DNA of 64,000 nucleotides from Pedobacter sp. WC2423 (lineage in GTDB: Bacteria; Bacteroidota; Bacteroidia; Sphingobacteriales; Sphingobacteriaceae): assembly GCF_040822065.1 (NCBI RefSeq), contig NZ_CP162005.1, positions 2,790,001 through 2,854,000 of the forward strand, read 5' to 3'. Under the pieces are notes generated by a model that searched no databases, was not told the origin of the DNA, and saw only the letters and a program-made list of their open reading frames with translations. Made by a program: the position numbers and the translations under genes. This document shows, one piece after another, positions 4,299 through 23,600 of the stretch. Numbering within the stretch: position 1 is the first letter of the stretch; each line of letters opens with the position of its first letter.

Positions 4299-5543
4299 TT
4301 ATTTACTGACCTCTACAATATCATATTGATTGAATTGATCATAAGAAGAAGTAATCACTTCTTCATCTTTCTGTAAACCTTCCATGATCTCATAATACAA
4401 ATAGTTTTTACGGCCTATTTTTACGTTTCTTTTCTGAGCTTTACCATTCTTCAGCACAAATACCCATGAACCTCCGGTACTTTGAAAAAACTGCCCCTGT
4501 GCCAGTAGCAGAGACTTACTATTATCTGAAAGCGTAAGTTTTACTTGTAAAGATAATCCTCTTCTTAACTCATCAGGTGATTTCCCTTCAAAAACTAATT
4601 CTACCTGGAACTGCCCCGCTGTAACTTCAGGAATCACCTTTCTGACCGTAAGGCGATAAGTTTTCCCATTAAACTCACAATTAGCAGATTGCCCCTCCTT
4701 TACCCTGTTGATATAATATTCATCTACTCCAGCCTGTAACTTATACCCCTGCATCACATCAATCTTTCCAAGCATCTCATTGGCCGTATAAGATTTACCG
4801 ATCACAGGGTCATAAGAAGATAATCTTCCCGAAACTGGGGCTTTAATAGTCATATTCTCTATATTTTTGCGGATAGTTTCCAGGCTCTCATTCATCCTGG
4901 TAACAGAAACATCAATTTGCTGTAACTGCATTGTCCTGCTCTGATTTTCCTGCTTAACTGCCTGTTTTAAGATTGCTTTTCTGTCTTTATTATATTCATA
5001 ATCCTGGCTCGAAGTATTAAACTCTTCCCTGGTAATTACTTTATTCAGGAACAGCGTACTATCAATTTTATATTTCCTGCCCGCCGTTCTCAGTGTATTC
5101 TCGATCACCATCATATCCTGAGCCATTACCCTTTGATTTTGTTCCAGATCCAGACGTACCTTACGCAATTGATTAATCTGTTCTATAATACTGGTTTCGC
5201 TCGAAGTATAATTAGATAATGCATTTGGATTAGCGATTCTTAACAGCGGTGTACCTTTGACAACACTAGCCCCATTCTCTGTAAAAATTTCAGCTACCGT
5301 TCCCCCCTCCGGAGAACTGACAATTACCGAAGTTAAGGGTACTACACTCGCATTCAATAAAACTACATCCTCAAAGTCACCATATTTAACTTTACTTAGC
5401 GTGAGTTTATCTGCATCAGCTTTATAAACCTTATTCAATGACAGCTTATATCCATATCCCACCAAAGCAGCTAACAAAATCCCCCCCGTAATCATTAATA
5501 TCTTTTTAGTACTGAATCTCTTTTTTTCGATGATCTTATCCAT
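4299..5543 (-). CDS. Periplasmic adaptor (HlyD/RND membrane-fusion protein family)
   Basis: A 414-residue membrane-fusion protein. A cytosolic N-terminus (MDKIIEKKRFSTKK) precedes one membrane anchor at about 15-33. A half-motif of the lipoyl domain follows (VSSPEGGTVAEIFTENGASVVKGTPLLRI, about 72-105), then a long coiled-coil hairpin (about 115-235), the second lipoyl half (IKAPVSGRLSSYDPVIGKSY) and beta-barrel domains. In MacAB-type pumps this adaptor links the inner-membrane permease to an outer-membrane TolC channel. No TolC gene is adjacent, so a channel encoded elsewhere is presumably shared. It is the first gene of the leftward operon, 19 nt downstream of the inferred sigma-54 start site. 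Start ATG 5543 gives a sensible basic N-terminus before the anchor. Confidence 0.93.
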   Translation of the reverse strand: MDKIIEKKRFSTKKILMITGGILLAALVGYGYKLSLNKVYKADADKLTLSKVKYGDFEDVVLLNASVVPLTSVIVSSPEGGTVAEIFTENGASVVKGTPLLRIANPNALSNYTSSETSIIEQINQLRKVRLDLEQNQRVMAQDMMVIENTLRTAGRKYKIDSTLFLNKVITREEFNTSSQDYEYNKDRKAILKQAVKQENQSRTMQLQQIDVSVTRMNESLETIRKNIENMTIKAPVSGRLSSYDPVIGKSYTANEMLGKIDVMQGYKLQAGVDEYYINRVKEGQSANCEFNGKTYRLTVRKVIPEVTAGQFQVELVFEGKSPDELRRGLSLQVKLTLSDNSKSLLLAQGQFFQSTGGSWVFVLKNGKAQKRNVKIGRKNYLYYEIMEGLQKDEEVITSSYDQFNQYDIVEVSK

Positions 5544-5574
5544 GATAACTATTGTAATATCTATGTGGCCTTAA

Positions 5575-5589
5575 GCTAAGCATATGCCA
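5575..5589 (-). promoter_or_regulatory. Candidate sigma-54 (-24/-12) promoter of the efflux operon
   Basis: On the minus strand the sequence is TGGCAT-N5-TAGC, against the consensus TGGCAC-N5-TTGC. The invariant GG and GC are 12 nt apart as required. The predicted start site is near 5563, giving a leader of about 20 nt before the adaptor ATG at 5543. The divergent neighbour encodes an NtrC-type activator, which supports the call. No transcript data are available. Confidence 0.62.
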
Positions 5590-5663
5590 AAGCAGAAAAA
5601 CATATTTAAATAACTAAAAATCAATAACTTAAATCATTTTAATAGAAAAATACCGTTCATTAT

Positions 5664-5708
5664 CGGACACCTGTTGTACAGCAACGGACAATTCCGCTAT
5701 TTTTGTCC
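5664..5708. promoter_or_regulatory. Candidate enhancer (UAS) for the NtrC-type regulator
   Basis: CGGACA occurs at 5664-5669 and again at 5685-5690, exactly 21 bp apart (two helical turns). The inverse TGTCC lies at 5704-5708, forming GGACA-N13-TGTCC with the second copy. The cluster sits about 100-145 bp upstream of the predicted sigma-54 start of the efflux operon, the usual distance for bacterial enhancer-binding proteins, and 56 bp before the regulator gene. Binding by that regulator is inferred. Confidence 0.45.
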
Positions 5709-5763
5709 AGCAGCTCTTTAAACTGACCGGATTACCCATTAAAGCTGCCTAAAATCTTACAAA

Positions 5764-7134
5764 ATGACAGAAGCGAACGTTTTAGTAATCGATGACGATG
5801 ATGATATCCTGTTAAGTGCAAAACTTTTTCTGAAGCAGCATTTCAACCAGGTTGTTACCTGTAAATCACCAAAGGAGATCAATGTTCTCCTGAGCCATAA
5901 CGAAATAGATATCATTCTGCTGGACATGAACTATCAGAAAGGAGCCAGCAATGGTCGTGAAGGACTCTACTGGTTAGAACATATTCTATCTATTGATAAA
6001 GATTATGTAGTTATTCTGATGACCGCCTATGGCAATGTGGAGCTGGCTGTACAGGCGATCAAAAAAGGTGCAACAGACTTTATCCTTAAACCCTGGGAAA
6101 ATGAAAAACTCTATGCAACACTTTCCGCTGCCTCTAAATTAAGGCAATCCACTAAAAAAGTCAAAAAACTAGAAAAGATAAACACCTCTATCCAAAACGA
6201 TCAGGCGCGTAAATTTGAGCATATCATCGGCACTTCCGAACCTATCAAACAGCTACAAAACACCCTGATCAAGGTAGCCCCAACCGATGCCAATGTATTA
6301 ATTCTTGGAGAGAACGGTACCGGAAAACAAGTATTCGCCTACGAACTCCATAAACACTCCCTCAGAAAAAACCATATTTTCATGCATGTCGATTTAGGCT
6401 CACTCAATGAAAATCTCTTTGAAAGTGAACTATTCGGTTACGCCAAAGGTGCATTTACAGATGCGCGCGATGACCGTCCCGGCAGATTCGAACTAGCCGA
6501 TAACGGAACTATCTTCCTGGATGAGATCGGGAACCTTTCCTTGCCCCTGCAATCCAAACTTCTTACCGTACTGCAAAACCGGACAGTGACCCGTTTAGGA
6601 GAGAGCAAAGACCGTAAAGTAAACGTAAGGCTTATTACTGCGACCAATATGCCTTTGAACGAAATGGTTACCAAAGGAACCTTTCGTCAGGATTTGCTTT
6701 TCCGGATTAACACCGTAGAACTGGAGCTTCCTCCCCTGCATAAACGCGCAGAAGACATCATACAGCTCGCTAATCATTTTTTACATATATTTAGTACAAA
6801 GTATCATAAAAACATCACCAATATCACTGAAAAAGCAGAAAAGACCTTATTAAACTATCATTGGCCTGGGAATGTCCGGGAATTGCAGCACGTTATTGAA
6901 CGTGCCATTATCATGGCCGATGGTAAAGAGATTACAGAACTGGATTTACAATTGAGTCCACAAAGATTCGGTGGCACCTCTCCCATGCCTGTAACGCTCG
7001 ACCTGGAAGAAATGGAGAAAATGATGGTACAAAAGGCCATAGAAAACCACAAAGGAAATATATCACGTGCAGCAGCAGAACTCGGTCTGACCCGTGCAGC
7101 CTTGTACCGCAGAATAGAAAAATTCGGATTATAG
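5764..7134 (+). CDS. NtrC-family sigma-54-dependent response regulator
   Basis: A 456-residue activator with three domains. The receiver (1-125) has acidic residues near D10-D14, phospho-acceptor D54 (ILLDMN) and the conserved Lys in LKPW near 109. The AAA+ sigma-54 interaction domain (about 150-375) has Walker A GENGTGKQ and the loop motif GAFTDA, the Bacteroidota variant of GAFTGA. The C-terminal Fis-type helix-turn-helix contains NISRAAAELGLTRAALYRRIEKFG. It ends 3 nt before the histidine kinase gene and is divergent from an efflux operon that has a sigma-54 promoter match. It most likely activates that operon when phosphorylated. Start ATG 5764 places the receiver at the extreme N-terminus, as is normal. 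Confidence 0.96.
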   Translation: MTEANVLVIDDDDDILLSAKLFLKQHFNQVVTCKSPKEINVLLSHNEIDIILLDMNYQKGASNGREGLYWLEHILSIDKDYVVILMTAYGNVELAVQAIKKGATDFILKPWENEKLYATLSAASKLRQSTKKVKKLEKINTSIQNDQARKFEHIIGTSEPIKQLQNTLIKVAPTDANVLILGENGTGKQVFAYELHKHSLRKNHIFMHVDLGSLNENLFESELFGYAKGAFTDARDDRPGRFELADNGTIFLDEIGNLSLPLQSKLLTVLQNRTVTRLGESKDRKVNVRLITATNMPLNEMVTKGTFRQDLLFRINTVELELPPLHKRAEDIIQLANHFLHIFSTKYHKNITNITEKAEKTLLNYHWPGNVRELQHVIERAIIMADGKEITELDLQLSPQRFGGTSPMPVTLDLEEMEKMMVQKAIENHKGNISRAAAELGLTRAALYRRIEKFGL

Positions 7135-7137
7135 CTT

Positions 7138-8496
7138 ATGTTTTATCAACGTTTCACTTTCAGGCTGCTCCTTAATCTTTTGCTCATCAATTCGCTGGCT
7201 CTGCTGCTGACTTATCTGATACTCAAAACCCAGCTTTGGTTTACCATTGCCGGTGTCTCCTGTATGCTTTTGATCAGTATCATTTCCCTCTATAACTATA
7301 TCAATCAGATCAGAGCTGATATCAAACGTTTTATACTCGCTATCAAAACCCGTGACCACACCTTAAACTTCAGAAATAAAAGCACCAAAGGCAGCTTTCC
7401 TGACCTTTACAGCTCTTTTGATGACATCATTAAAACCCATAAAGACATCCAGCTGGAACAAGACGCTATGTTTCAGCTCATTAAAACCATCCTTCAGCAG
7501 GTCCCCGTAGGTGTAATCGTACTCAAAGACAACAATACCGTACACGAACAAGCCGAAATCTCCTTCTTTAACGAAGCCGCGGCGGCCTTACTGAAAGTAC
7601 CCGCCTATAAATACTGGCATCGCCTGAAAGAGCACCTTCCACTTTTCGCTGCTGAAATACAGCGCATAGAAAAAGGCGGCAAAAGATTCCTTGAATTAAA
7701 AATCCAGGATAAACTGATCCAGCTCTCTACCGAAGTCATCCCGATCAACCTTTACAATACCAATTACAGAATTATCTCTTTCCAGAACATCAAGGATGAA
7801 ATTGAGCAAAAAGAAATAGAAGCATGGAACAGGCTCATCGGGGTAATCTCCCATGAAATCCTGAATTCCATTACCCCGATCAGCTCCCTTTCCGATACCG
7901 TCAATACGATGGTCACTAACAAAGACTCCCTGAATAAAGAGGAGCTTGAAGACCTCAAACCTGCAATCCAAGCCATTAAAAGGCGTTCTATCGGCCTGTT
8001 GGACTTCGTCAAAGACTACCGTTTAATTGCTGAACTGCCGACCCCCGAACTCGAATCCCATAGCATCGGTGAGATCCTGCAACACATCCAGATTCTGATG
8101 CAACCCTTTGCTTCTGCAAAAAACGTCAAACTAACTGTGGGGCAAACCTCTTCAAAAATCACCATCAACATAGACTTAAAACTGGTAGAGCAGGCCTTAA
8201 TCAATCTGATCACCAACAGCATCCATGCCCTGGAAGACACCACTAATCCTCAAATAGAAATAGACTACCGCCTGGAACAAAACAAACTCTTTATTGACGT
8301 TACTGATAACGGTAAAGGAATTGAACCAGAACTCGCAGAGAAAATCTTCGTCCCATTTTTCACCACCAGGAAAAACGGTTCCGGTATCGGTCTGACCATC
8401 ACCCGTAACATTATGAAAATGCATTACGGCAATCTCGAAGTCAGCTCAATACCCCAGGAAAAGACCATCTTCTCCCTCGTTTTCAATTATGTTTAA
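7138..8496 (+). CDS. Membrane sensor histidine kinase, partner of the NtrC-type regulator
   Basis: A 452-residue kinase. Two membrane helices near residues 9-29 and 33-54 leave almost no periplasmic loop, so it probably senses within the membrane or cytosol. A HAMP-like linker and PAS-like region (about 110-215) follow. The dimerisation/phospho-acceptor helix has H239 in [15 protein letters not shown]. The HATPase domain carries the N box ([13 protein letters not shown]), G1 (DNGKGIEPE) and G2 ([13 protein letters not shown]). This H-box type is typical of NtrB/NtrY-like kinases that pair with NtrC regulators. It starts 3 nt after the regulator stop, so the two are co-translated. The signal is unknown; membrane or antibiotic stress would fit the efflux neighbour (inference). 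Confidence 0.95.
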
Positions 8497-8520
8497 GCGA
8501 CCCTTTATAAAATAAATCGA

Positions 8521-8528
8521 TAGATTTG
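8521..8528 (+). promoter_or_regulatory. Possible Bacteroidota -7 promoter element before the ferredoxin reductase gene
   Basis: TAGATTTG fits the TAnnTTTG -7 consensus of Bacteroidota. It ends 6 nt before ATG 8535, so a start site would fall at or next to the start codon. I see no good -33 TTTG element at the right spacing, so confidence is low. Confidence 0.25.
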
Positions 8529-8534
8529 CATCCT

Positions 8535-9587
8535 ATGACTACCCTGCAATTACGTATTACTGAAATTTCACAACGTCCCGGAAACAACGTCTTCATTCAA
8601 TTTGAACCCGTAAATGGCCTTCCACTAATCTATGAAGCCGGACAATTCCTGACCGTACTCTTTCAGGTTAACAACAAAGAAATCAGGCGTTCCTACTCCA
8701 TTTGCAGCTCACCCGCAATAGACGAACCCCTTAGTATTGCAGTAAAACTCGTAGAAAACGGAGAAATCTCTAAATATCTCCACCACAAAACAGCTGTCGG
8801 AGATATCCTGAACGTACTGCCCCCAACAGGAATTTTCACTTACACTCCTGTCAAAACCATCAAACGTACCGTATTTCTCTTTGCAGCCGGCGTAGGTATT
8901 ACCCCCATTTATTCCATTCTGAAAACGGCCCTGCTACAAGAAGAAAGCTCAAAAATAGTACTGATCTACAGCAACCGTTCCGCCACAACAACCCTTTTTT
9001 ACAAAGAACTGAACCAGTGGCAAAAAGACTACCCCGAACGCTTTAAACTAATCTATCTATTCAGCGACTCTAAAAACCTGCAACTCGCACGCCTCAACAG
9101 CTTTGCATTCCACGATCTTTACAACTCCAACATCCAGTACGACCAATACGATGCCCTATGCTACACCTGCGGCCCCATTGACTACATGGTGATGTGCCGC
9201 ATTTCCCTTTTAGGCTTAGGCTTCCGTATAGACCAGATAAAAAAAGAAACCTATTTCATCCCCGAAGATGAAGCAGACGACGACGACATGACCGAGAAGG
9301 TCATCAAAGACAAAAACACCTACACCGTCATCCTTGAATTCAATAAAAACGTCTACCAATTAGAAGTACCCTGGTATAAAAGAATCCTGGAAGTGGCTCT
9401 TGCGCATAACATCAATGTACCCTACAGCTGCGGAGCCGGAATATGCAGTTCCTGCGTAGCTTCCTGCACCCAAGGCGGCGTCAGAATGGACTATAACGAA
9501 GTCTTAACCGATGAAGAAATAGCAGCCGGAAGAGTGCTGATCTGTACAGGGCACCCTACCCAAAACAACACTAAAATTGTAATCTAA
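8535..9587 (+). CDS. Ferredoxin-NADP reductase-like flavoprotein with C-terminal 2Fe-2S domain (PaaE/Hmp-type)
   Basis: A 350-residue electron-transfer enzyme of the phthalate dioxygenase reductase/PaaE type. An FAD-binding barrel with RRSYSICSSP comes first. The NAD(P)-binding domain has FAAGVGITPIYSIL and the CGP motif (YTCGPIDYMV). A plant-type ferredoxin domain ends the protein, with CGAGICSSCVASC and a later Cys in VLICTGHP, giving the C-x4-C-x2-C-x(n)-C ligand set. It would pass electrons from NAD(P)H through FAD and the cluster to an oxygenase or other acceptor. No oxygenase is nearby, so its partner is unknown. It lies 38 nt after the kinase gene and may be read from it or from its own promoter. 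An upstream in-frame TTG (8526) is possible, but ATG 8535 is preferred. Confidence 0.92.
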   Translation: MTTLQLRITEISQRPGNNVFIQFEPVNGLPLIYEAGQFLTVLFQVNNKEIRRSYSICSSPAIDEPLSIAVKLVENGEISKYLHHKTAVGDILNVLPPTGIFTYTPVKTIKRTVFLFAAGVGITPIYSILKTALLQEESSKIVLIYSNRSATTTLFYKELNQWQKDYPERFKLIYLFSDSKNLQLARLNSFAFHDLYNSNIQYDQYDALCYTCGPIDYMVMCRISLLGLGFRIDQIKKETYFIPEDEADDDDMTEKVIKDKNTYTVILEFNKNVYQLEVPWYKRILEVALAHNINVPYSCGAGICSSCVASCTQGGVRMDYNEVLTDEEIAAGRVLICTGHPTQNNTKIVI

Positions 9588-13780: not shown

Positions 13781-16375
13781 TTAGAAATTAAATCCTACTG
13801 AGATATAAGGCATCGTACTTTCTTTTGAAAAACCTACTGCTGCCTGGATCAGGATTAAATCTGCCGGAACAATGTAAATGCCACCACCATAACCGTGGTG
13901 CCACTGGTTGGAAGTTTGTCCCGGCACCCATACACGGCCCACGTCATTAAAGCCTAAAAGGCCCAGTGAACCTGGTACAATGTAAGAAGTAAAGTCAAAT
14001 AACTTCAAACGCAGATCAAGATTGTAATACAACATAGACTTCCCAGTAAAGCGGTTGGTATGAAAACCACGAAGATTATGCACCCCACCTAACTGCATTT
14101 GCTGGAAAAATTCAGGATCCCCAACCGTTGTACCTCCACCCAAACGGTTCGCAATCACAAAACCAGATTGTCCCGGATTCATATAATAACGGAACTCTGA
14201 TTGTATTTTTCCATAACGTTCATGATCTCCGTTAAGCTGCTGATTAGCAGTAATCCTGGTATTCCAATACATTCCCTTTTTAGGAATAGAGATATTATCT
14301 CTGGAATCATATTTCACTTCAGTAATCAGACCTGCATAAATACGATCTGAGAAAACTGATTCTTCCGGATTACTCTGGTTAAAGTCATTCAGGAACCGCT
14401 TTTCATTCCCTGAACGGCTGCTGGTATAGTATTCAGTAGCCAGTCCGCCACCAACTGTCCATTTATCTGCTTTTTTATAAGCCTGAAAATCTGCCGTCAG
14501 GTAATCATATCGGTTACGGTAATAGGACATCCCTTTAGGATCCTCTTTGATAAACGCAGTTTCATTACCCAGGCCAAAGAAGTTACTCAGGTTATTTGGT
14601 CCCAGCAGGTTCGCATTGACCTTTAGATTAGTATTTCCAATCGCTTTTTTAAAATCTCCGGCGTAATTTAGAATAAAGGATTTACGGCCCGTTGAATAAT
14701 CTACCCAAAACTCCTGATGAGAAGCATAAGGAGTTCTTCTGAATCCCTGTTTCTCCAGTATCAGCCCTACGCCTGCCTGTATTCCCTGGTCAATATTATA
14801 ATTGACATGAAACAGCGGACCAAACTGATCAAATACAAAACTTCTTTTATTGTACTGATTTACAGCTGTATCCGTTGACAAACGAAGTTTAGCCACACTA
14901 GCAGCTGGAATTTCATTGTCCTGATCTGAACGGTCATAAATATAAGTATTGGATTTATGGTTCAATGCTTTATCGATTACAAACTGATCATTGCCATCTC
15001 CACCAATCATCCGGACTTTGACCGGGGATTTAGTTTCTCCGGTAACTTCAAAAATATCGTCCCCTCCCATTCCATACAACCTGATTTCGTGAGTTAACTT
15101 AGGATCAAAAGTACGGTGATATAACTTTCTGCCTGTTTCACCACTCTTTTTAATATTGCTGACCGTCAGTTCTATATTTCCATTTTTTTTATGCTTCACC
15201 TCAAAATACTCTCTTTTGTCGGAAGCCGGAATTTCAACTGTAGCCGCAAGGAAACGATAATAAGTCATTGCACTTTTCTCCAGGTTATCTTTCCTGGCAA
15301 TCATGATTTGCAGCGTCTGCTCTCCGCCCTGAGCAAAAATATCAGCTGGCATCAGCAGCATTGATTTCCGTAAAATGGCAGGCGTCAGTTTCTGCTGTAC
15401 ATATTTGATTTCTTCCTGCCAGTCTTTTTCACTCAGTCCGCTCAGGAAATACCTGTCAAAATAACGCTGATAAAAGTTCCACTGGTCAACCGCTCTGATA
15501 TTTGGTTCATAAGGCTGATGTTTAGCATTGAGCCATTGATGAGATAGAATCCACGGAAATACACCAGAAGACTTAAAAAACACTTTATCCCGGTCACGCG
15601 GAACAGGAACATATTCCTTATCTCCCTTGTTATCTTCCAGTTTCAGCCATCTCCAGTTATCCTCATGTCTGTCCCAGTCTCCTACAATAAAATCAAGCAA
15701 TCTTGCTCTCAATACCAGTTTTTGGTTGAAATGGATATCATTATCCTCTTCTGCTTTTCGCTGCGCCTTGATAGTATTATCACTTTTCTCATAACCGGTT
15801 GGCATCCGTTCTTCCAGCAAATAAACCGCATTGGCAAAATCCTTTCTGTACTGCCCCAGTGCAGGATCATCTCCAACATATACAATTTCGGGATTCGCAT
15901 GAGGAAGGTCAAGCACATCGGCCAGCGGAGGAACGATTAACGCAGAATAAGGATGACTCGTAGAGATCTGATCCTGTACAATATCTTTTGCAATCGTTGC
16001 TCTCAGATTTTCAGGTAAGCCTCTTTCAGAATACTTTTGTACCGTTCTTAATACCCATTCCCTGCCCGAAGCATCCTCTAAACGCATCGAACGGGTTTGC
16101 ATCCCACCGCCCATTTGCAGGAATTTCATTCCGCCATGTTCTTGCTGCAAATCAACAATCCGCATCTTTACAGGCGTAGCCCATTGTTTACGGTAATTCT
16201 CCCCTAAAAAGAAACGGTGTGTTTTGGATACCGCGTCATATTCAGGAGCAATCGCTATGGTAATAGAATCCTTTGTACGCTGAAGCTGGGCATTTGTCAA
16301 TAGTGGAAAACTAAAAAACAGAGCAGTTAATGATACTGTCAGGTTTATCCTATTCTTTCTGGAAATTATGATCAT
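13781..16375 (-). CDS. Outer-membrane beta-barrel (Omp85/BamA-like) protein with N-terminal kinase-like domain
   Basis: An 864-residue exported protein. A signal peptide ends near LLTNAQ (residue 30). Residues about 85-400 look like an atypical kinase fold: a strand with RLEDASGREWVLRTVQK (98-114), then LLDFIVGDWDRHEDNW (226-241), whose DRHxxN matches the catalytic loop of PI3K, HipA and FAM20-type kinases, then VPRDRDKVFF (258-267) as a possible metal-binding site. A short beta-rich region with GGDDIFEV and GGDGNDQFVI follows. The C-terminal third is a surface-antigen/Omp85 barrel with LGGVHNLRGFHTNRF (the VRGF-type motif) and a final aromatic residue (GFNF). It is the last gene of the polyphosphate kinase operon, 11 nt after the GAF-domain gene. 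The barrel is confident. The kinase-like assignment comes from motifs only. Confidence 0.85.
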   Translation of the reverse strand: MIIISRKNRINLTVSLTALFFSFPLLTNAQLQRTKDSITIAIAPEYDAVSKTHRFFLGENYRKQWATPVKMRIVDLQQEHGGMKFLQMGGGMQTRSMRLEDASGREWVLRTVQKYSERGLPENLRATIAKDIVQDQISTSHPYSALIVPPLADVLDLPHANPEIVYVGDDPALGQYRKDFANAVYLLEERMPTGYEKSDNTIKAQRKAEEDNDIHFNQKLVLRARLLDFIVGDWDRHEDNWRWLKLEDNKGDKEYVPVPRDRDKVFFKSSGVFPWILSHQWLNAKHQPYEPNIRAVDQWNFYQRYFDRYFLSGLSEKDWQEEIKYVQQKLTPAILRKSMLLMPADIFAQGGEQTLQIMIARKDNLEKSAMTYYRFLAATVEIPASDKREYFEVKHKKNGNIELTVSNIKKSGETGRKLYHRTFDPKLTHEIRLYGMGGDDIFEVTGETKSPVKVRMIGGDGNDQFVIDKALNHKSNTYIYDRSDQDNEIPAASVAKLRLSTDTAVNQYNKRSFVFDQFGPLFHVNYNIDQGIQAGVGLILEKQGFRRTPYASHQEFWVDYSTGRKSFILNYAGDFKKAIGNTNLKVNANLLGPNNLSNFFGLGNETAFIKEDPKGMSYYRNRYDYLTADFQAYKKADKWTVGGGLATEYYTSSRSGNEKRFLNDFNQSNPEESVFSDRIYAGLITEVKYDSRDNISIPKKGMYWNTRITANQQLNGDHERYGKIQSEFRYYMNPGQSGFVIANRLGGGTTVGDPEFFQQMQLGGVHNLRGFHTNRFTGKSMLYYNLDLRLKLFDFTSYIVPGSLGLLGFNDVGRVWVPGQTSNQWHHGYGGGIYIVPADLILIQAAVGFSKESTMPYISVGFNF

Positions 16376-16386
16376 TTAATCTGTTT

Positions 16387-18741
16387 TTAAACTGCAACTG
16401 TTACGCGCAATGCTTTAAGTCCTTCCACCCCCTGTAATTCTTCGACCTCCAGGTACTCCACCTGATCGGTCAGTAAGCCCTGTTGCTGTAATTTATGGAT
16501 ATAAAGCATATATTCATCTGCCTCTGAACCATTAAAATAGACAATTGCTATTTTACCCGGCTGCGTCAAACGCTCTGAGCTTTCTTTGACATGTGCTTTA
16601 TCAATCCTTTTCTTCACCATCTGATACCGGATATTGTAACTTCCCTCCACATCAAATCTTTGCTCATCAATACGGAAACTAATGTCAATAATCTTCTCAT
16701 AAACAAAGATTAGCTGTGTCGTTTCCAAAGGAATTGGCAAGGTTGGTTTCAGCTCATGTGTGAGCCTGGTAATCTCCGCAATAGCTTTCAGTTGTCTCAA
16801 CCGGAAATCAGCTACCAGCTCATCGCCAAATTCTCTGTCAGGAGCAATCGAATGCCCCAGGTAAATATCAAACTCAACCCCATCAGTTCTGAATTTCTCA
16901 AAATAACAAGGATGTTCCTCTTGTAATTCCGCGTTGAACTGATCCAGATGTTTATTCACTGCATGGTTGATCGCCTGCATACTTTGCTCATAATTATCCC
17001 TGTTTTCAAAGATCTTTCCTCCCTGGCGTGTCAGCTCAAAATATTCATTAATAATCCCTTCAGCTCCAGGATAAATTTCTTTAAGCACATTCAGATACGG
17101 AGGAAGCTGATGTTGTAAATAATCATCAGTTTTCATGATTTCCCGGTCAGAGATTTCATCAAAACCTTTATGGTCCCAGGAAGAGTGCTGTCTTGGAAAA
17201 TCATCCTCTACAATTTCCGGGATAATAGCTTTCAGGTTTCTCAATGCACTTTCCAGGATCTCAAAATGTGCAAATAAATCTTTCCTGATCATCAGGTTTC
17301 GTTCAATACTAGAATTCCTGATATCAATTGCCCCATAAAAAGGATGAACATCCTTAAAATAAACGGATTCAATAGGGAGGTTTTTCTTCCACTTTCCAGA
17401 TTGCATATAATGGTAAGCAACCTCGTTGAAACGCCATTTCACAGCAGATTGAAGGGCTGTAAATTTATCGGTTACAATGGCCGTGATCTCGTTGTTAAAA
17501 TCAACAATGATATTCTGGTAAAGCTGGGCAAGTAAAGGAAACGCACTCTCAATTCTGGACAAAGTATTGCCATTGAAAGCAGTGCTGTCTTTCGTATAAA
17601 GTTCCAGACAGCCTATAAGTTTAGCATTGTAATACAATGGAAAAATAGCATAAGACTTAATTCCAGCATCCGCAACCAGCGTCAGCATTGGAAAAGTGGA
17701 ATACTCTTCTATATTAACCTCAGGAAAGATCAGTCTGCGCGGGTTGGCCACAAAGTCTTCTACGAGTTTAGAATATTCCAGTTCACTGATCCCATTTACT
17801 TTTGCCTGCTGAATAATTACACTTTGAAAACCTTCGTGAAAGTAAGGTAAGACCTTATCGTTCAACTTCAGATAAGGCAATAATCCGAAGGAGATCTGAT
17901 CACTGCCCACTAAAGACTTCAATGCCGTCGAAATTGAGGAAGTACTCCATCCTATCTGACATTGGTTATGTGATATAATAGCATTTTTAATAGACTCTAA
18001 AGCATATTCTGCGGTAATATCTACTAAGCTTACAATAGAAACCCCTTCCACACGGAACATTTCTGAAGGCAGCAGCGTCATTAAGGTATCCAGGCTGTTA
18101 GTTTCATCCTGCATATACTCCTTTACATTTTGAAGCGTTAGTTCCGGTAAAGGTTTAATACTGGTCACTTCTACAAAACGGGTATCTACATTTAATTTAT
18201 AATATTTTAATAATTGCGTATCGTGGTCAATGATTGATTTGATCACATGCTGATCTGTTCCCAGGCTAAAGTTGTAAAACTTTTGCAACACCAGGTTGTA
18301 CAGCGTGGTCAGCATCGTCTTTTGCATTTCCTGTTGAGATGGTAAAGCCAGATCTGTATTCAAACCTTCCTTTTTATCATCCATCAGCACTTTATAAAAA
18401 GCATTTGTACCGTAGTGAAAACAAGGGCAAACCGGTTTACTTAAAGCCCAAAGCTGTTCTTTTTCTTCATTGATAATCGGCGACAGCGCAGTATAAATCA
18501 ATTCATACAAGTGATTGTATTTAGTCACATTGGCAGCAGGAATTGGATCCTTCAATTCTGGAAAAGCAGAAAATTCCCCCAGCAGATAGTTATAGAAATT
18601 TATTTTGGCTGTCTTTTCTACCTTAATCTTTTCCGTCAGAAAAGTGATAAATGGTTTCAAGGAAAGCCGGATATCAGCTTTCATCCCATTTACTTCATCT
18701 CCGCACACGTACTTGTTAAAGTCAATCGTTATTGCCTGCAT
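16387..18741 (-). CDS. Large GAF-domain-containing protein of unknown function
   Basis: A 784-residue, probably cytosolic protein with no signal peptide or membrane helix. A central stretch (about 290-420), including SYAIFPLYYNAKLIGCLELYTKDSTAFN, has the shape of a GAF sensor domain, with the usual strand pattern ending in a switch to helix. The flanking N-terminal (1-280) and C-terminal (430-784) parts are helix-rich and I do not recognise them. No kinase, cyclase, phosphodiesterase or HTH motif is visible, so this looks like a ligand-sensing scaffold rather than an enzyme. It lies between the SdiA-regulated-type lipoprotein gene (58 nt upstream) and the kinase-like/barrel gene (11 nt downstream) in the polyphosphate operon. 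The 58-nt gap could hold an internal promoter. Confidence 0.75.
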   Translation of the reverse strand: MQAITIDFNKYVCGDEVNGMKADIRLSLKPFITFLTEKIKVEKTAKINFYNYLLGEFSAFPELKDPIPAANVTKYNHLYELIYTALSPIINEEKEQLWALSKPVCPCFHYGTNAFYKVLMDDKKEGLNTDLALPSQQEMQKTMLTTLYNLVLQKFYNFSLGTDQHVIKSIIDHDTQLLKYYKLNVDTRFVEVTSIKPLPELTLQNVKEYMQDETNSLDTLMTLLPSEMFRVEGVSIVSLVDITAEYALESIKNAIISHNQCQIGWSTSSISTALKSLVGSDQISFGLLPYLKLNDKVLPYFHEGFQSVIIQQAKVNGISELEYSKLVEDFVANPRRLIFPEVNIEEYSTFPMLTLVADAGIKSYAIFPLYYNAKLIGCLELYTKDSTAFNGNTLSRIESAFPLLAQLYQNIIVDFNNEITAIVTDKFTALQSAVKWRFNEVAYHYMQSGKWKKNLPIESVYFKDVHPFYGAIDIRNSSIERNLMIRKDLFAHFEILESALRNLKAIIPEIVEDDFPRQHSSWDHKGFDEISDREIMKTDDYLQHQLPPYLNVLKEIYPGAEGIINEYFELTRQGGKIFENRDNYEQSMQAINHAVNKHLDQFNAELQEEHPCYFEKFRTDGVEFDIYLGHSIAPDREFGDELVADFRLRQLKAIAEITRLTHELKPTLPIPLETTQLIFVYEKIIDISFRIDEQRFDVEGSYNIRYQMVKKRIDKAHVKESSERLTQPGKIAIVYFNGSEADEYMLYIHKLQQQGLLTDQVEYLEVEELQGVEGLKALRVTVAV

Positions 18742-18799: not shown

Positions 18800-19669
18800 T
18801 CAGGGTTTACGCTTAAACTTTAAAATATTTCCAGAACTCAGTTCATCACCTTCATTAGAAATGTACAAGTTCATCTGGTTATCAAAAGCTATTCCTTCGG
18901 GCTGAGCAAAAATAGCAGAATTTAACCGGTGTACGCTTTTAACTTTCCAGTCCGGACTGGCTACAATCAGCAGCTTATTCACCGAAGAAAGAATATACCA
19001 ATCTCCTGAATGCGGATCTTTTGTTAATGCGGAAGCTTTCAAACCAGTTTTCAGAATCTGTCCGGAAGTTACCAGCCCGCTAAGGTCCATAGAGAAATTG
19101 CCAGAAGCAATCAATTCATTTTTCGCCGGATTATAAGTAAAAATAGAACCAGACATCGTCTGGTTTTTTTTATCTCCTTTACAGTTTTTACACAGCAGGT
19201 AAACCTGGTTGGTTTGCTGGTCGGCATAGATACTCTCGTATTCACCATCCGGAAGGATATCGTTCCATTCTTTAATTTTTTTCACTTTCGGCTGAATAGC
19301 CGCTGTAAAAGGAAAAGTGAAAAGTGTGCCATCACTTCTTAAGATAATGACTGTCTCATTTAAAATTGTCAGATCTTCATAATCTCCCTTTTTACCAAAA
19401 ATTGCATGCTGTTGTTTTTTATTTCCCCAGGCTTGTCTGTAAAGGCGGCCTTCCTCATCCTGTATAGAATAGACAGTATCACTTTTGCCTTTGTAAAAAG
19501 CAATTCCAGAGATTTCGTGCAAACTTTCAGGCATGATAAATTTCTCAGGATGATTGAAATCATATCCTTTAGGGCTTGAATAAGATTGTTTTGCAGGCTT
19601 ACAGGCATAAAAACCGATCAAAATCAGTAGTGGCAAAAGGTAACTCAGCTTTTTAAGAAATGCTTTCAT
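18800..19669 (-). CDS. SdiA-regulated-family lipoprotein (beta-propeller-like)
   Basis: A 289-residue lipoprotein. The N-terminus (MKAFLKKLSYLLPLLILIGFYAC) ends in a lipobox with lipidated Cys at 23. The mature part shows propeller-type units: LHEISGIAFYKGKSDTVYSIQDEEGRLYR, GDYEDLTILNETVIILRSDGTLFTF and AQPEGIAFDNQMNLYISNEGDELSSGNIL. These match the SdiA-regulated (YjiK-like) family, whose biochemical role is unclear. Its start codon overlaps the end of ppk1 by 4 nt, giving translational coupling. It should sit in the periplasm or outer membrane. Its repeated co-location with polyphosphate kinase is worth testing, but sequence alone gives no mechanism. Confidence 0.82.
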   Translation of the reverse strand: MKAFLKKLSYLLPLLILIGFYACKPAKQSYSSPKGYDFNHPEKFIMPESLHEISGIAFYKGKSDTVYSIQDEEGRLYRQAWGNKKQQHAIFGKKGDYEDLTILNETVIILRSDGTLFTFPFTAAIQPKVKKIKEWNDILPDGEYESIYADQQTNQVYLLCKNCKGDKKNQTMSGSIFTYNPAKNELIASGNFSMDLSGLVTSGQILKTGLKASALTKDPHSGDWYILSSVNKLLIVASPDWKVKSVHRLNSAIFAQPEGIAFDNQMNLYISNEGDELSSGNILKFKRKP

Positions 19670-21732
19670 GATGCGTTAAGTTCAATGGGATGTGCAGTAG
19701 TAGTCTCTTTCAGAAAATTATAAATAGCATGTTGAGAGCGGATTTTAACTTCACCAGCGCAATAATTATTTTGCAACTCTGCGTTAAGTTCAACCGCCTG
19801 AACAGTATCGTTTAATTGTAAATTTAAGATTGTTATCAGTTTCATTTTTAATTCCTGGTCGCAGATAGGAAAACAGACTTCTATTCTTCCATAAATATTC
19901 CTGTTCATCCAGTCGGCCGATCCCATATAAACCTCTTTCTCCCCGTTGTTATGGAAAAGAAAGATCCGGCCATGTTCCAGGTAACGATCTACGATACGTT
20001 TCACCGTAATATTTTCACTTTGACCTTCAATTCCCGGGATCAGACAACAGACACTGCGCACAATCAATTGTATTTTTACTCCTGCAGCTGAAGCTTCATA
20101 AAGCTTGGAAATTAAGACGCGCTCCTCCAGGTTATTCATTTTGATCACAATTCCACAGGACAGTCCTTTTTTGGCATTGCTGATTTCACGGTCTATCAAT
20201 GCTATAAATTTCTGCTGCAAATTGAATTGAGCCACTAATAAATGTTCAAAATTAATAGCGTCTTCCAGCTGTGGTTTTTTCTTTTTCTTATTCAGGAAAC
20301 CAAATAGCTGTTTCAGCTCTGCGAGCATGGCCTGGTTAGCCGTCAATAAAATATGATCCGTATAAAAACGTGCTGTTGATTCGTTCAGGTTTCCTGTAGC
20401 CAGCAATCCGAGATAATGACTTTGATTCCTGACCGTTCTTTTAACCAGAGCTACCTTTGCATGTACTTTCAGTTCTTTGTTGCTATAAATGATTTTTACG
20501 CCCGCAGCTTTCATGCGGGAAGCCCATTTGATATTATTAGCTTCATCAAATCTGGCTTTCAGCTCCACCATTACAGCAACCTTTTTCCCGTTTTTTGCAG
20601 CCGTCATTAAAGCATTCACAATCCTGGAATTGTCAGCAACCCGGTAAAGCGTCACATAAATTTCTTCTGTGAAACTATCATTTGCAGCTTCATTAAAAAA
20701 TCTTAATATCGGATCATAGTTCTGATAAGGCACATGAACCATCAGATCCTTTTTAAATATCTGCTCAAAAAGAGTTTCTTCCTTTTTGAGCAGCAGACCT
20801 GGCAATGCCGGCCACTTCGGATAGTTTAATTCTGCTTCATGGAGTGGGAAATTACTCAGATCTTTCATATTGTGGTAATACCCACCCGCTACAACCGAAG
20901 AATTGGCCAGATTAAGTGCGTAAATAATCTTGTAAAGATGTCTTAGTGGTATTCCGGGCTGACATAAAAACCGGGTAGCTGTACCCAGATCCCTTTTCTT
21001 TAACTCTTTTTCCAGCGCAATCGTGATATCTTCATCCAGATCTTCGATTTCTTCTTTAAGATTCATCTCCGCATTTCTGGTGATTTTAATATTAAAAACC
21101 CCTTTGATCTCTTCGGCAGGAAAAAGATAGTCCAGATTATTTCTGATAATATCATCCAGAAAAACAACATATTTCTGATCCTCTTTATTGACAGTATACA
21201 ATCTTGGTAACGCGTCAGAAGGAATGGTAATCAACTCCAGACGCTCTATACCAGCCGCGTCCGACAGGATCACCGCCTGGTATAACCTGTTATTTTCAGC
21301 AAAGAAACCATCTTCATCCTTCGCTACTGAAAACAACCTGATGTAAGCCAGTACCTCATTAAAGAAAATCCGGGATAATTCGTCTGTTATAGATTCAGGA
21401 ATCACTTCATTGTATAACCAGTGGATATCTTTTGCTTTTAAGGCCGGTAAAAGATGATTTGCCAGTAAATGCCCGAACCTTTGCTGCTGCTGATTGATTA
21501 AAAACTGAGCTTTATAATAGTTATTATTTAATCCGGTACTATCGTCAAAATTATCAATAGCCATCAAAACCGGCATCCTGACGCGGTAAAATTCATCCAG
21601 ATTGGAAGAATAAATAGACAGAAACCTGATGCGTTCCAATAAAGGGACCTGCTCATTTTCGGCTTCCATCAGCACACGCTCATTAAAACTTAACCAGCTC
21701 AGATCACGGTTAAAAAAGGTATATTCTGTCAT
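19666..21732 (-). CDS. ppk1: Polyphosphate kinase 1
   Basis: A 688-residue PPK1, the normal length, which reversibly polymerises the ATP gamma-phosphate into polyphosphate. The N-terminal helical domain has FFNRDLSWLSFNERVLMEAE, the hallmark start. The central region has YYHNMKDLSNFPL and the basic HVPYQNYDPILRFFNEAA loop. Two phospholipase D-like domains follow. The autophosphorylated His is H424 in LKVHAKVALV, and the second conserved His is H587 in YLEHGRIFLF. Conserved TGNLNESTARFYTDH and GSADWMNRN are also present. It starts 7 nt after the HD-PycTM gene and overlaps the following lipoprotein gene by 4 nt. All expected catalytic residues are seen. Confidence 0.96.
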   Translation of the reverse strand: MTEYTFFNRDLSWLSFNERVLMEAENEQVPLLERIRFLSIYSSNLDEFYRVRMPVLMAIDNFDDSTGLNNNYYKAQFLINQQQQRFGHLLANHLLPALKAKDIHWLYNEVIPESITDELSRIFFNEVLAYIRLFSVAKDEDGFFAENNRLYQAVILSDAAGIERLELITIPSDALPRLYTVNKEDQKYVVFLDDIIRNNLDYLFPAEEIKGVFNIKITRNAEMNLKEEIEDLDEDITIALEKELKKRDLGTATRFLCQPGIPLRHLYKIIYALNLANSSVVAGGYYHNMKDLSNFPLHEAELNYPKWPALPGLLLKKEETLFEQIFKKDLMVHVPYQNYDPILRFFNEAANDSFTEEIYVTLYRVADNSRIVNALMTAAKNGKKVAVMVELKARFDEANNIKWASRMKAAGVKIIYSNKELKVHAKVALVKRTVRNQSHYLGLLATGNLNESTARFYTDHILLTANQAMLAELKQLFGFLNKKKKKPQLEDAINFEHLLVAQFNLQQKFIALIDREISNAKKGLSCGIVIKMNNLEERVLISKLYEASAAGVKIQLIVRSVCCLIPGIEGQSENITVKRIVDRYLEHGRIFLFHNNGEKEVYMGSADWMNRNIYGRIEVCFPICDQELKMKLITILNLQLNDTVQAVELNAELQNNYCAGEVKIRSQHAIYNFLKETTTAHPIELNAS

Positions 21733-21739
21733 CGTATTT

Positions 21740-22981
21740 TTATAAAGCGACTATCGCACTGGCAATAACAAAGGCAAGAACCGAAGCAATGATACCGAAC
21801 ATAAACACATTATAGGCAATCCTCAGCAAACGGTATTTACGACCTAAAACTACACCCTGAGAATATAAATCACGGATTAAACTACCATAAAGGAAATCTC
21901 TGTCTTCCATCATTTTCTGCATTCCGTTCACATAATCAGGCAGTGCCATCCGGTAAAAATTACCAAAGAACAATAAGTTCACCTTTTTTTCTTCGATATC
22001 CTGTGGAGTAAAAGTTCCCGGGGGTACAGTAGGCCTGGTTGCCAGGATCGAGAAGACCATGGTTACCACACAAATAATCAACAAGATCAATGTCGGAATG
22101 ATCAAATGAGGATTATCTTCCAGTTTACGCAGCAGTACACTTAAAGTAACTGACAAAATGATAGAATTGGTGGAGATCATGATATGCGCTTTATTATCTG
22201 CCATATCACTTAAACGCTGATGGTTACCAGAAGAAATCCGGAACATGGTTTCTATCCCTTTATCAGGACGGTCACTTTTCTCCTTTTTATCTTTATTTTT
22301 TTTCTCCGCTACTACTTCCGTATGTTTTTCTGAGCTAACCGGAGCAGCATCATGAAGAGCCTCTTCTTTGGCTTTTCCATGTTTGTCTTTAAACACTTTT
22401 TCTTTCAATTCGTTCAGGTTTGATTCTTTTTTTGCGGCCAGTAAATCCTGGCAATAATCGGTATGGTAATGGTGCATTTCGAAAAGGACAATGGTTTTTG
22501 CACGCCATTCTTCTTTATCGATAGCTCTTCCTATAAAGGCAATTGCTTCTTTACGGATCAGTTTATTTCGTTCCTTAAAATCTTCACTGCCCAGGTGAAA
22601 AAGATCGGCATCACACACAATCTCTTCTAACAATCCAACCGGATGCTGAGGCATTTTTGTAGCCAGAATACAATTGGTCACCAAACCCGTTAATTCTGGT
22701 TCCGCGCCCTTTGATTCCAGAAATTCCTTAGCCAGTGCTGCCCCGCGCTCTTCATGCTTTTCACAGTTGATCAGGTAACCAATATCGTGAAACCACGCGG
22801 CTACGCTGACTACAAAAAAATCATGATCTGACAATTGATAATGATTGGCTATTTTAACTACAGCTTTAACCACCTGCTCAGTATGCAGCAAGTTATGGTA
22901 AGTTAATCTCTCGTCTTTATTAATGTGAAACAAGTTTGAGACATGCGCTCTGACCTGATCTAGTATATCCAGGTAATTCAT
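21740..22981 (-). CDS. HD-domain protein fused to a Pycsar-type TM effector domain (PycTM)
   Basis: A 413-residue fusion when begun at ATG 22981. An upstream in-frame TTG at 23026 would overlap the TetR gene and is less likely. Residues 1-200 form an HD phosphohydrolase domain with metal-binding H33, H65-D66 (WFHDIGY), H76 and D124 (CDADLFHLG). A charged Lys/Glu-rich linker (about 200-250) follows. The C-terminal part (about 255-413) matches the PycTM family: ETMFRISSGNHQRLSDMADNKAHIMI, two membrane helices, a cytosolic insert and a final pair of helices. In Pycsar antiphage systems PycTM proteins respond to cyclic pyrimidine nucleotides made by PycC, but no cyclase is encoded in this window. 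The position next to ppk1 suggests a housekeeping or nucleotide/polyphosphate stress role (inference). Confidence 0.87.
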   Translation of the reverse strand: MNYLDILDQVRAHVSNLFHINKDERLTYHNLLHTEQVVKAVVKIANHYQLSDHDFFVVSVAAWFHDIGYLINCEKHEERGAALAKEFLESKGAEPELTGLVTNCILATKMPQHPVGLLEEIVCDADLFHLGSEDFKERNKLIRKEAIAFIGRAIDKEEWRAKTIVLFEMHHYHTDYCQDLLAAKKESNLNELKEKVFKDKHGKAKEEALHDAAPVSSEKHTEVVAEKKNKDKKEKSDRPDKGIETMFRISSGNHQRLSDMADNKAHIMISTNSIILSVTLSVLLRKLEDNPHLIIPTLILLIICVVTMVFSILATRPTVPPGTFTPQDIEEKKVNLLFFGNFYRMALPDYVNGMQKMMEDRDFLYGSLIRDLYSQGVVLGRKYRLLRIAYNVFMFGIIASVLAFVIASAIVAL

Positions 22982-23006
22982 CTTATAAATATGGAGGTTT
23001 AAATTC

Positions 23007-23600
23007 TTAATTCCCAATACCTTCAATGAGCATATCTACCAGCTCATCAAAATATTCATGGGATTGTACTGCTGAAGGATTAATGGAAAGCGGAAAGTGC
23101 AGGCCTCTGAAAGCAACAATCAGTACAAAAGACATCTTATGAATACTTTCAGCAGAAAGATCTTTGAATTCACCACTCTGTGTCCCTCCCAAAATAATTT
23201 CACTGATCATACCCAGCTGCATCTGTTCATATTTTAAACGAAGGGGCAGCAACATCCTCCTGGATTCAATCATATCTACAAAAATCACTTGATAAAGACT
23301 GCGGAATTCCAGGATAGCTGTACTTTGAAAATTCAGAAAAGCCTTCAGTTTATCTTTCGCAGAAAGTACCCCGTTTACTGTTTCGCGCAAATTCTTAATC
23401 ACTGCTTTCATCTCATCTTTAACCACGGCAGCGAAGATTTCATTTTTACCGGGGAAATAATAATAAAGCGTACTTTTCCCTTTTCCGGCTGCCGCAGAGA
23501 TATCTTCTATAGTGGTCTTTTTTAATCCGAACTTCCCAAACAAAGATTTGGCAGCAATTAAGATCTCACTAATTACGATTTCATCTTTATCCATAAGCAT
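23007..23600 (-). CDS. TetR/AcrR-family transcriptional regulator
   Basis: A 197-residue regulator with the typical TetR N-terminal DNA-binding domain: ILIAAKSLFGKFGLKKTTIEDISAAAGKGKSTLYYYFPGKNEIFAAVV (about 12-60). It carries the helix-turn-helix and the conserved YYYF segment. The C-terminal ligand domain is helical and diverged, so the effector cannot be predicted. It heads the leftward operon (HD-PycTM, ppk1 and others), with a 25-nt gap to the next ATG, and is divergent from the NRPS cluster across a 457-bp region. ATG 23600 is used; a second ATG at 23594 is equally possible. An inverted repeat just upstream may be its operator, so it could autoregulate the polyphosphate operon, the biosynthetic cluster or both. 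Confidence 0.92.
   Translation of the reverse strand: MLMDKDEIVISEILIAAKSLFGKFGLKKTTIEDISAAAGKGKSTLYYYFPGKNEIFAAVVKDEMKAVIKNLRETVNGVLSAKDKLKAFLNFQSTAILEFRSLYQVIFVDMIESRRMLLPLRLKYEQMQLGMISEIILGGTQSGEFKDLSAESIHKMSFVLIVAFRGLHFPLSINPSAVQSHEYFDELVDMLIEGIGN

Follow-up and report, generated by a model that had tools for sequence, protein, structure and literature searches.

The locus described here raises the question of whether a protein exported from the cytoplasm and held in the outer membrane could nevertheless carry a working kinase-like domain, as ATP is believed to be scarce in the periplasm. The gene lies in a window of 64,000 nucleotides from Pedobacter sp. WC2423. Its open reading frame comprises 864 codons from an ATG start on the minus strand and is free of internal stops; the plus strand of the same interval holds many stops. 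The parts of the protein and the genes that accompany it are listed in Table 1.

Table 1. Features of the kinase-barrel gene and of its co-directional neighbours, as positions in the window.
Feature	Residues	Position	Strand	Basis or remark
Whole gene: signal peptide, kinase-like domain, beta linker, Omp85-type barrel	864 aa	13781..16375	-	
Putative Sec signal peptide (basic n-region, hydrophobic core, ...LTNA/Q)	1-29	16289..16375	-	by eye
Kinase-like domain	37-377	15245..16267	-	AlphaFold2 and PI4KII/CotH/CtkA/HipA/Fam20A structural matches
GGGMQ, glycine-rich loop at the strand 1/strand 2 junction	89-93	16097..16111	-	conservation and predicted secondary structure
EWVLRTVQK, strand 3, with R110 and K114 (candidate donor-phosphate-binding residues)		16034..16060	-	AlphaFold2 model, conservation
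GDWDRHEDNW, catalytic loop, candidate catalytic D235	232-241	15653..15682	-	conservation, profile comparisons
PRDRD (DRD 261-263), candidate metal-binding DFG-equivalent	259-263	15587..15601	-	conservation, profile comparison
All-beta linker domain	~378-510	14846..15244	-	full-length model
16-stranded Omp85-type barrel	517-864	13784..14827	-	Pfam Omp85, model, Foldseek
LRGF, Omp85 loop-6 (V/I/L)RG(F/Y) signature	768-771	14063..14074	-	sequence
784-aa protein, GAF-like stretch, 11 bp upstream; conserved neighbour		16387..18741	-	GAF-like stretch by eye
SdiA-regulated-family protein, probable lipoprotein; conserved neighbour		18800..19669	-	lipoprotein by eye
Polyphosphate kinase 1 (ppk1), one of two genome copies		19666..21732	-	
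HD domain and PycTM membrane protein, most tightly co-occurring partner		21740..23026	-	
TetR regulator, first gene of co-directional run		23007..23600	-	overlaps next ORF

The C-terminal part had been described in advance as an Omp85-like barrel, and it is one. Pfam Omp85 scores 46.7 bits (cut-off 24; E=4e-12), the model of the whole protein (pLDDT 88) consists of the kinase-like domain, an all-beta linker (379–500 in this model) and 16 barrel strands (517–862), and BamA and TamA are on top when the barrel is compared with the PDB by Foldseek (best 5.8e-12). The loop-6 signature (V/I)RG(F/Y) is found as LRGF, with L replacing V/I. Pfam gave no match to a POTRA domain, and the linker is not POTRA-like in its predicted secondary structure; POTRA domains are usual but not universal, as an Omp85 subfamily without an N-terminal extension is recognised (PMC4104836). 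The Sec-type signal, read by eye, and the position of the kinase-like domain ahead of the barrel imply that this domain is placed in the periplasm, in line with what the preliminary description had proposed. The arrangement resembles that of the patatin-Omp85 protein PlpD (type Vd), in which an N-terminal enzyme likewise sits on an Omp85 barrel, although PlpD has another enzyme fold and a POTRA domain where the window protein has its all-beta linker. Within this linker, residues 437–465 (approximately 14981–15067, minus strand) hold GGDDIFE and GGDGNDQF repeats that resemble calcium-binding RTX-type motifs, and similar letters occur in several relatives that stand alone.

The proposal of a kinase was originally made to depend on the predicted topology, and the predicted structure has this topology. 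An AlphaFold2 model of residues 30–409, built from 71 aligned sequences (pLDDT 93.4, pTM 0.92), has the two-lobed fold of the protein kinase-like (PKL) superfamily, and the predicted elements follow one another in kinase order: strand 1, GGG, strand 2, strand 3 (R110), a helix (D135), strands 4 and 5, the hinge (E188), a helix, GDWDRHEDNW, further strands and PRDRD. The five best Foldseek matches in the PDB are all Helicobacter CtkA (best 1.4e-5), followed by Rio2, PI4KII, HipT and others, with DrFam20C1 at 4.4e-3. VIA-align 2, a program for which middling Z scores can be common, gave Z 14.4 for PI4KII beta over 264 residues (13% identity), a match that spans most of the domain, and 13.8 for CotH, 13.0 for CtkA, 10.9 for HipA and 10.2 for Fam20A; by our reading all matches listed are kinases or HipA/HipT-type kinase toxins except LepB (rank 39, Z 10.5). 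With the top solved matches coming from the PI4K/HipA/CotH/Fam20 group of atypical kinases, residues 37–377 are predicted with high confidence to form an atypical-kinase fold nearest to PI4KII, CotH, CtkA, HipA and Fam20A.

At the level of sequence these relationships are distant. No Pfam or NCBIfam model scored above its cut-off for residues 30–405, in the single protein or in 36 relatives, and this includes the curated Pfam cut-offs for the PI3/PI4 kinase and Fam20 families. The cut-off of CotH (PF08757) was reached by none of the 36 relatives (best E=0.075, one sequence), and no CotH match was found in the host genome. HipA_C (PF07804) also stayed below its cut-off, with a weak profile comparison (p=0.1), and when the single protein was compared with the PDB by sequence alone, nothing but a barrel match and chance matches came back. 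Profile comparison was more informative for 22 Bacteroidota CotH sequences, where LDFIVGDWD...PVPRDRD aligned with IDVLTGNWD...IPYDYD (p=5.6e-4), so that the catalytic and the metal-binding Asp are both aligned with those of CotH; the family profile also aligned with CtkA at ADTLLGNFDRHNGNW, a match that is weak by itself (E=0.22). The fold and the main residues fit the PKL superfamily, but as none of the curated CotH, HipA, PI3/PI4K or Fam20 models was reached, the domain is not assigned to any of these subfamilies. It appears to be a new kinase-fold family, as judged against Pfam, NCBIfam and the PDB rather than libraries of predicted structures, and the literature searched, in which few subscription journals are included, yielded no account of an Omp85 barrel that carries a kinase domain.

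Conservation of the active site was counted in 112 relatives gathered without a motif filter; a set of 80 relatives (L063–L142) was left out since the scan that retrieved them required DxxxGDWDRH-like letters, which makes their motif conservation circular. The active-site positions are retained in about 90–97% of the 112, a level that chance does not explain. The catalytic loop has D235 in 104 relatives, R236 in 109 and H237 in 100, and the putative metal motif has D261 in 105 and D263 in 103. The glycine-rich loop that joins strand 1 to strand 2, as expected in the PKL superfamily, has G89 and G90 in 104 of 112. R110 (103/112), K114 (107/112) and D135 (108/112) are near-invariant and may stand where the superfamily has the Lys-Glu pair of strand 3 and helix C. 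The hinge E188 is found in 109/112 and G271 in every relative. DRHEDN had been noted at 235–240 inside VGDWDRHEDNW, preceded by a basic strand and followed by DRD, and all of these are found, on the minus strand, with R110 and K114 in the basic strand. The further reading of this segment as a PI3K/HipA/FAM20-type catalytic loop and metal site, with a DRHxxN loop, agrees with the fold match and with the conservation of D235, R236, H237, D261 and D263 but does not extend to the family at position 240, where the Asn of the window protein is shared by 16 of 112 relatives and Gln is found in 92. DRHxxN was rejected as a family motif for this reason. Kinases usually have Lys in beta-3 and Glu in helix C; the present family departs from this with Arg in beta-3 and Asp in helix C, and with a loop residue that is mostly Gln.

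To the computed fold, motif conservation, barrel, architectures and partners, catalysis and a periplasmic side can be added by reasoning, and the protein is probably a metal-dependent phosphotransferase of an atypical PI4KII/CotH/CtkA/Fam20 type, anchored in the outer membrane and facing the periplasm. The signal peptide would direct export and the Omp85-type barrel would hold the protein in the outer membrane, with the N-terminal kinase-fold domain hanging into the periplasm. D235 would then serve as the catalytic base, the metal would be bound by D261 and D263, and the GGG loop together with R110 and K114 may hold the phosphates of the donor, which could be ATP at trace levels, polyphosphate or a different phosphoanhydride.

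The genes next to the kinase-barrel gene bear on this reading. They form a run in one direction (TetR, HD-PycTM, ppk1, SdiA-regulated, 784-aa protein and the kinase-barrel gene), parts of which recur in Pedobacter, Mucilaginibacter, Sphingobacterium, Chitinophaga and others; the 784-aa protein has no match in Pfam, NCBIfam or PADLOC. The operon had been said to encode a polyphosphate kinase, and ppk1 does belong to the run. It lies within 15 kb of the kinase-like domain in at least 19 of the 52 genomes with the domain and ppk1 among the matches listed, where roughly 0.6 would be expected if shared ancestry is ignored, and 14 of these 19 genomes belong to one family (f43). PPK1 is expected in the cytoplasm, and the second ppk1 of the host (G000:C1:5856122) is far from the window. 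As main partner ppk1 was rejected, as HD-PycTM, which the preliminary description had not mentioned, co-occurs far more tightly: 76 genomes have both the kinase-like domain and strong PycTM, 15 only the former and 3 only the latter (shared ancestry again ignored), and of the 81 PycTM genes 64 lie no more than 15 kb from the kinase-like domain. The PycTM domain is named after Pycsar phage-defence effectors. Here the HD-PycTM gene is part of an operon conserved across Bacteroidota that is not defence-island-like in look, and in PADLOC the kinase-barrel protein has no match and only the PycTM part of the neighbour does, so that a role in defence is without direct support.

The kinase-fold domain could conceivably act as a pseudoenzyme or as a sensor, which binds a periplasmic nucleotide or phospho-ligand and controls the barrel or HD-PycTM with no phosphotransfer. 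The active site is not intact in 12 of 195 sequences, classified as degenerate, so a non-catalytic role of the fold is possible, and the classical Asn is mostly missing, with Arg and Asp where Lys and Glu are usual. Two loci, L143 and L144, even hold an intact copy beside a degenerate paralogue (7439–9151 and 4433–6055, respectively) in which GDWDRHE is replaced by GDWSRRE, an arrangement that recalls the kinase/pseudokinase pair of Fam20C and Fam20A. On the other hand the Asp, His and Arg of the active site are kept in most members, and their loss tracks the absence of the strong PycTM partner: none of nine genomes with only degenerate retrieved copies has a strong PycTM (three have weak matches), compared to 76 of 81 other genomes (p=3e-9, shared ancestry ignored). 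This suggests that the remaining members are catalytic, and the pseudoenzyme explanation is considered unlikely.

A phosphotransferase of this fold need not phosphorylate protein, and the transfer could be a different one, e.g., of a nucleotidyl group, or of phosphate to a lipid or sugar. By VIA Z the lipid kinase PI4KII ranks first among solved folds; it differs from the window protein as the latter is bacterial, exported and fused to a barrel. CotH and CtkA are described as protein kinases. They are about equally close, and closeness of fold does not decide the substrate. The spore-coat kinase CotH (5jda, 5jd9) shares the fold, and its catalytic loop and DxD align with those of the family, whereas the window protein has DRH in place of the CotH loop and carries a barrel; in CtkA the loop DRHNGNW aligns with DRHEDNW, but CtkA and the HipA-like kinases are without a barrel fusion. 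The Fam20 secretory kinases are a structural match and also lie outside the cytosol, but they are eukaryotic, lack a barrel and share no Pfam match with the window protein. Kinase-fold families with other chemistry are known (PMC10870513), and transfer of another kind seems improbable rather than far-fetched. As an active translocator, a role put forward in the past for PlpD, the barrel would bring the kinase-like domain onto the surface of the cell or set it free; this is very unlikely, although Omp85 barrels include translocators and the loop-6 motif is present, as the N-terminal enzyme domain of PlpD was shown to remain periplasmic on its barrel (PMC11116518) and standalone relatives begin, by eye, with a lipobox-like segment or a transmembrane helix or other membrane anchor.

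The proposed periplasm-facing phosphotransferase is also to be seen against the variants of its architecture. The kinase-like domain was found in 91 of 247 Bacteroidota genomes sampled, in proteins of about 860 aa (kinase and barrel), 1200–1400 aa, or 420–590 aa without a barrel. Three architectures occur, i.e., kinase and barrel, a purple-acid-phosphatase-like domain followed by kinase and barrel, and a separately anchored kinase. The host itself has a 1201-aa paralogue (L002) whose kinase-like part is preceded by a PF00149 domain; the nearest solved structures of this PF00149 domain are purple acid phosphatases (TRAP, 5.8e-8), and the window gene is without it. At L148 a kinase-like lipoprotein, a phosphatase and a barrel are encoded by three consecutive genes. 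With protein length as a proxy, architecture changes 14 times on the FastTree tree, and at least 8 of the changes concern the phosphatase form and are forced by well-supported branches; on this tree, the phosphatase module is one that has been gained or lost repeatedly. As sister proteins have the phosphatase-like domain fused or encoded next door, the two activities may be a reversible phosphorylation pair that would act on an envelope substrate.

Proteins with PF00149 and an Omp85-type barrel, as in L002 and other relatives, were named the 'Metallo' subfamily by Heinz and Lithgow (2014), who called the domain a metalloprotease and in whose text the word kinase is absent (PMC4104836). From the architecture we infer that those sequences are the same proteins as the kinase-like relatives. 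In the relatives the PF00149 domain is purple-acid-phosphatase-like, which corrects the metalloprotease reading, and a further kinase-fold domain of about 340 aa, previously unremarked, separates it from the barrel. The phosphatase-barrel architecture has thus been known since 2014, and the kinase-fold family appears to be new.

If the proposed activity is true, a phosphate group would be transferred in a compartment thought to be without ATP, the usual donor, and this across the phylum Bacteroidota. As for polyphosphate, a hypothetical donor, the ppk1 linkage agrees with it and no other result speaks for it. A wider scheme, in which the Bacteroidota periplasm has a reversible phosphorylation made up of an outer-membrane kinase-fold protein with a donor other than ATP (e.g., polyphosphate), the purple-acid-phosphatase-like domain and an inner-membrane HD-PycTM protein, is quite unlikely to hold in full. 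Because a phosphatase is often the partner and HD-PycTM co-occurs so strongly, the system is open to genetic tests in cultured strains of Pedobacter, Sphingobacterium or Mucilaginibacter. A distant relative (24% identity over 94% of the protein), annotated as 'hypothetical protein', is also carried by a plasmid of the gut species Parabacteroides distasonis (NZ_OY725747.1).
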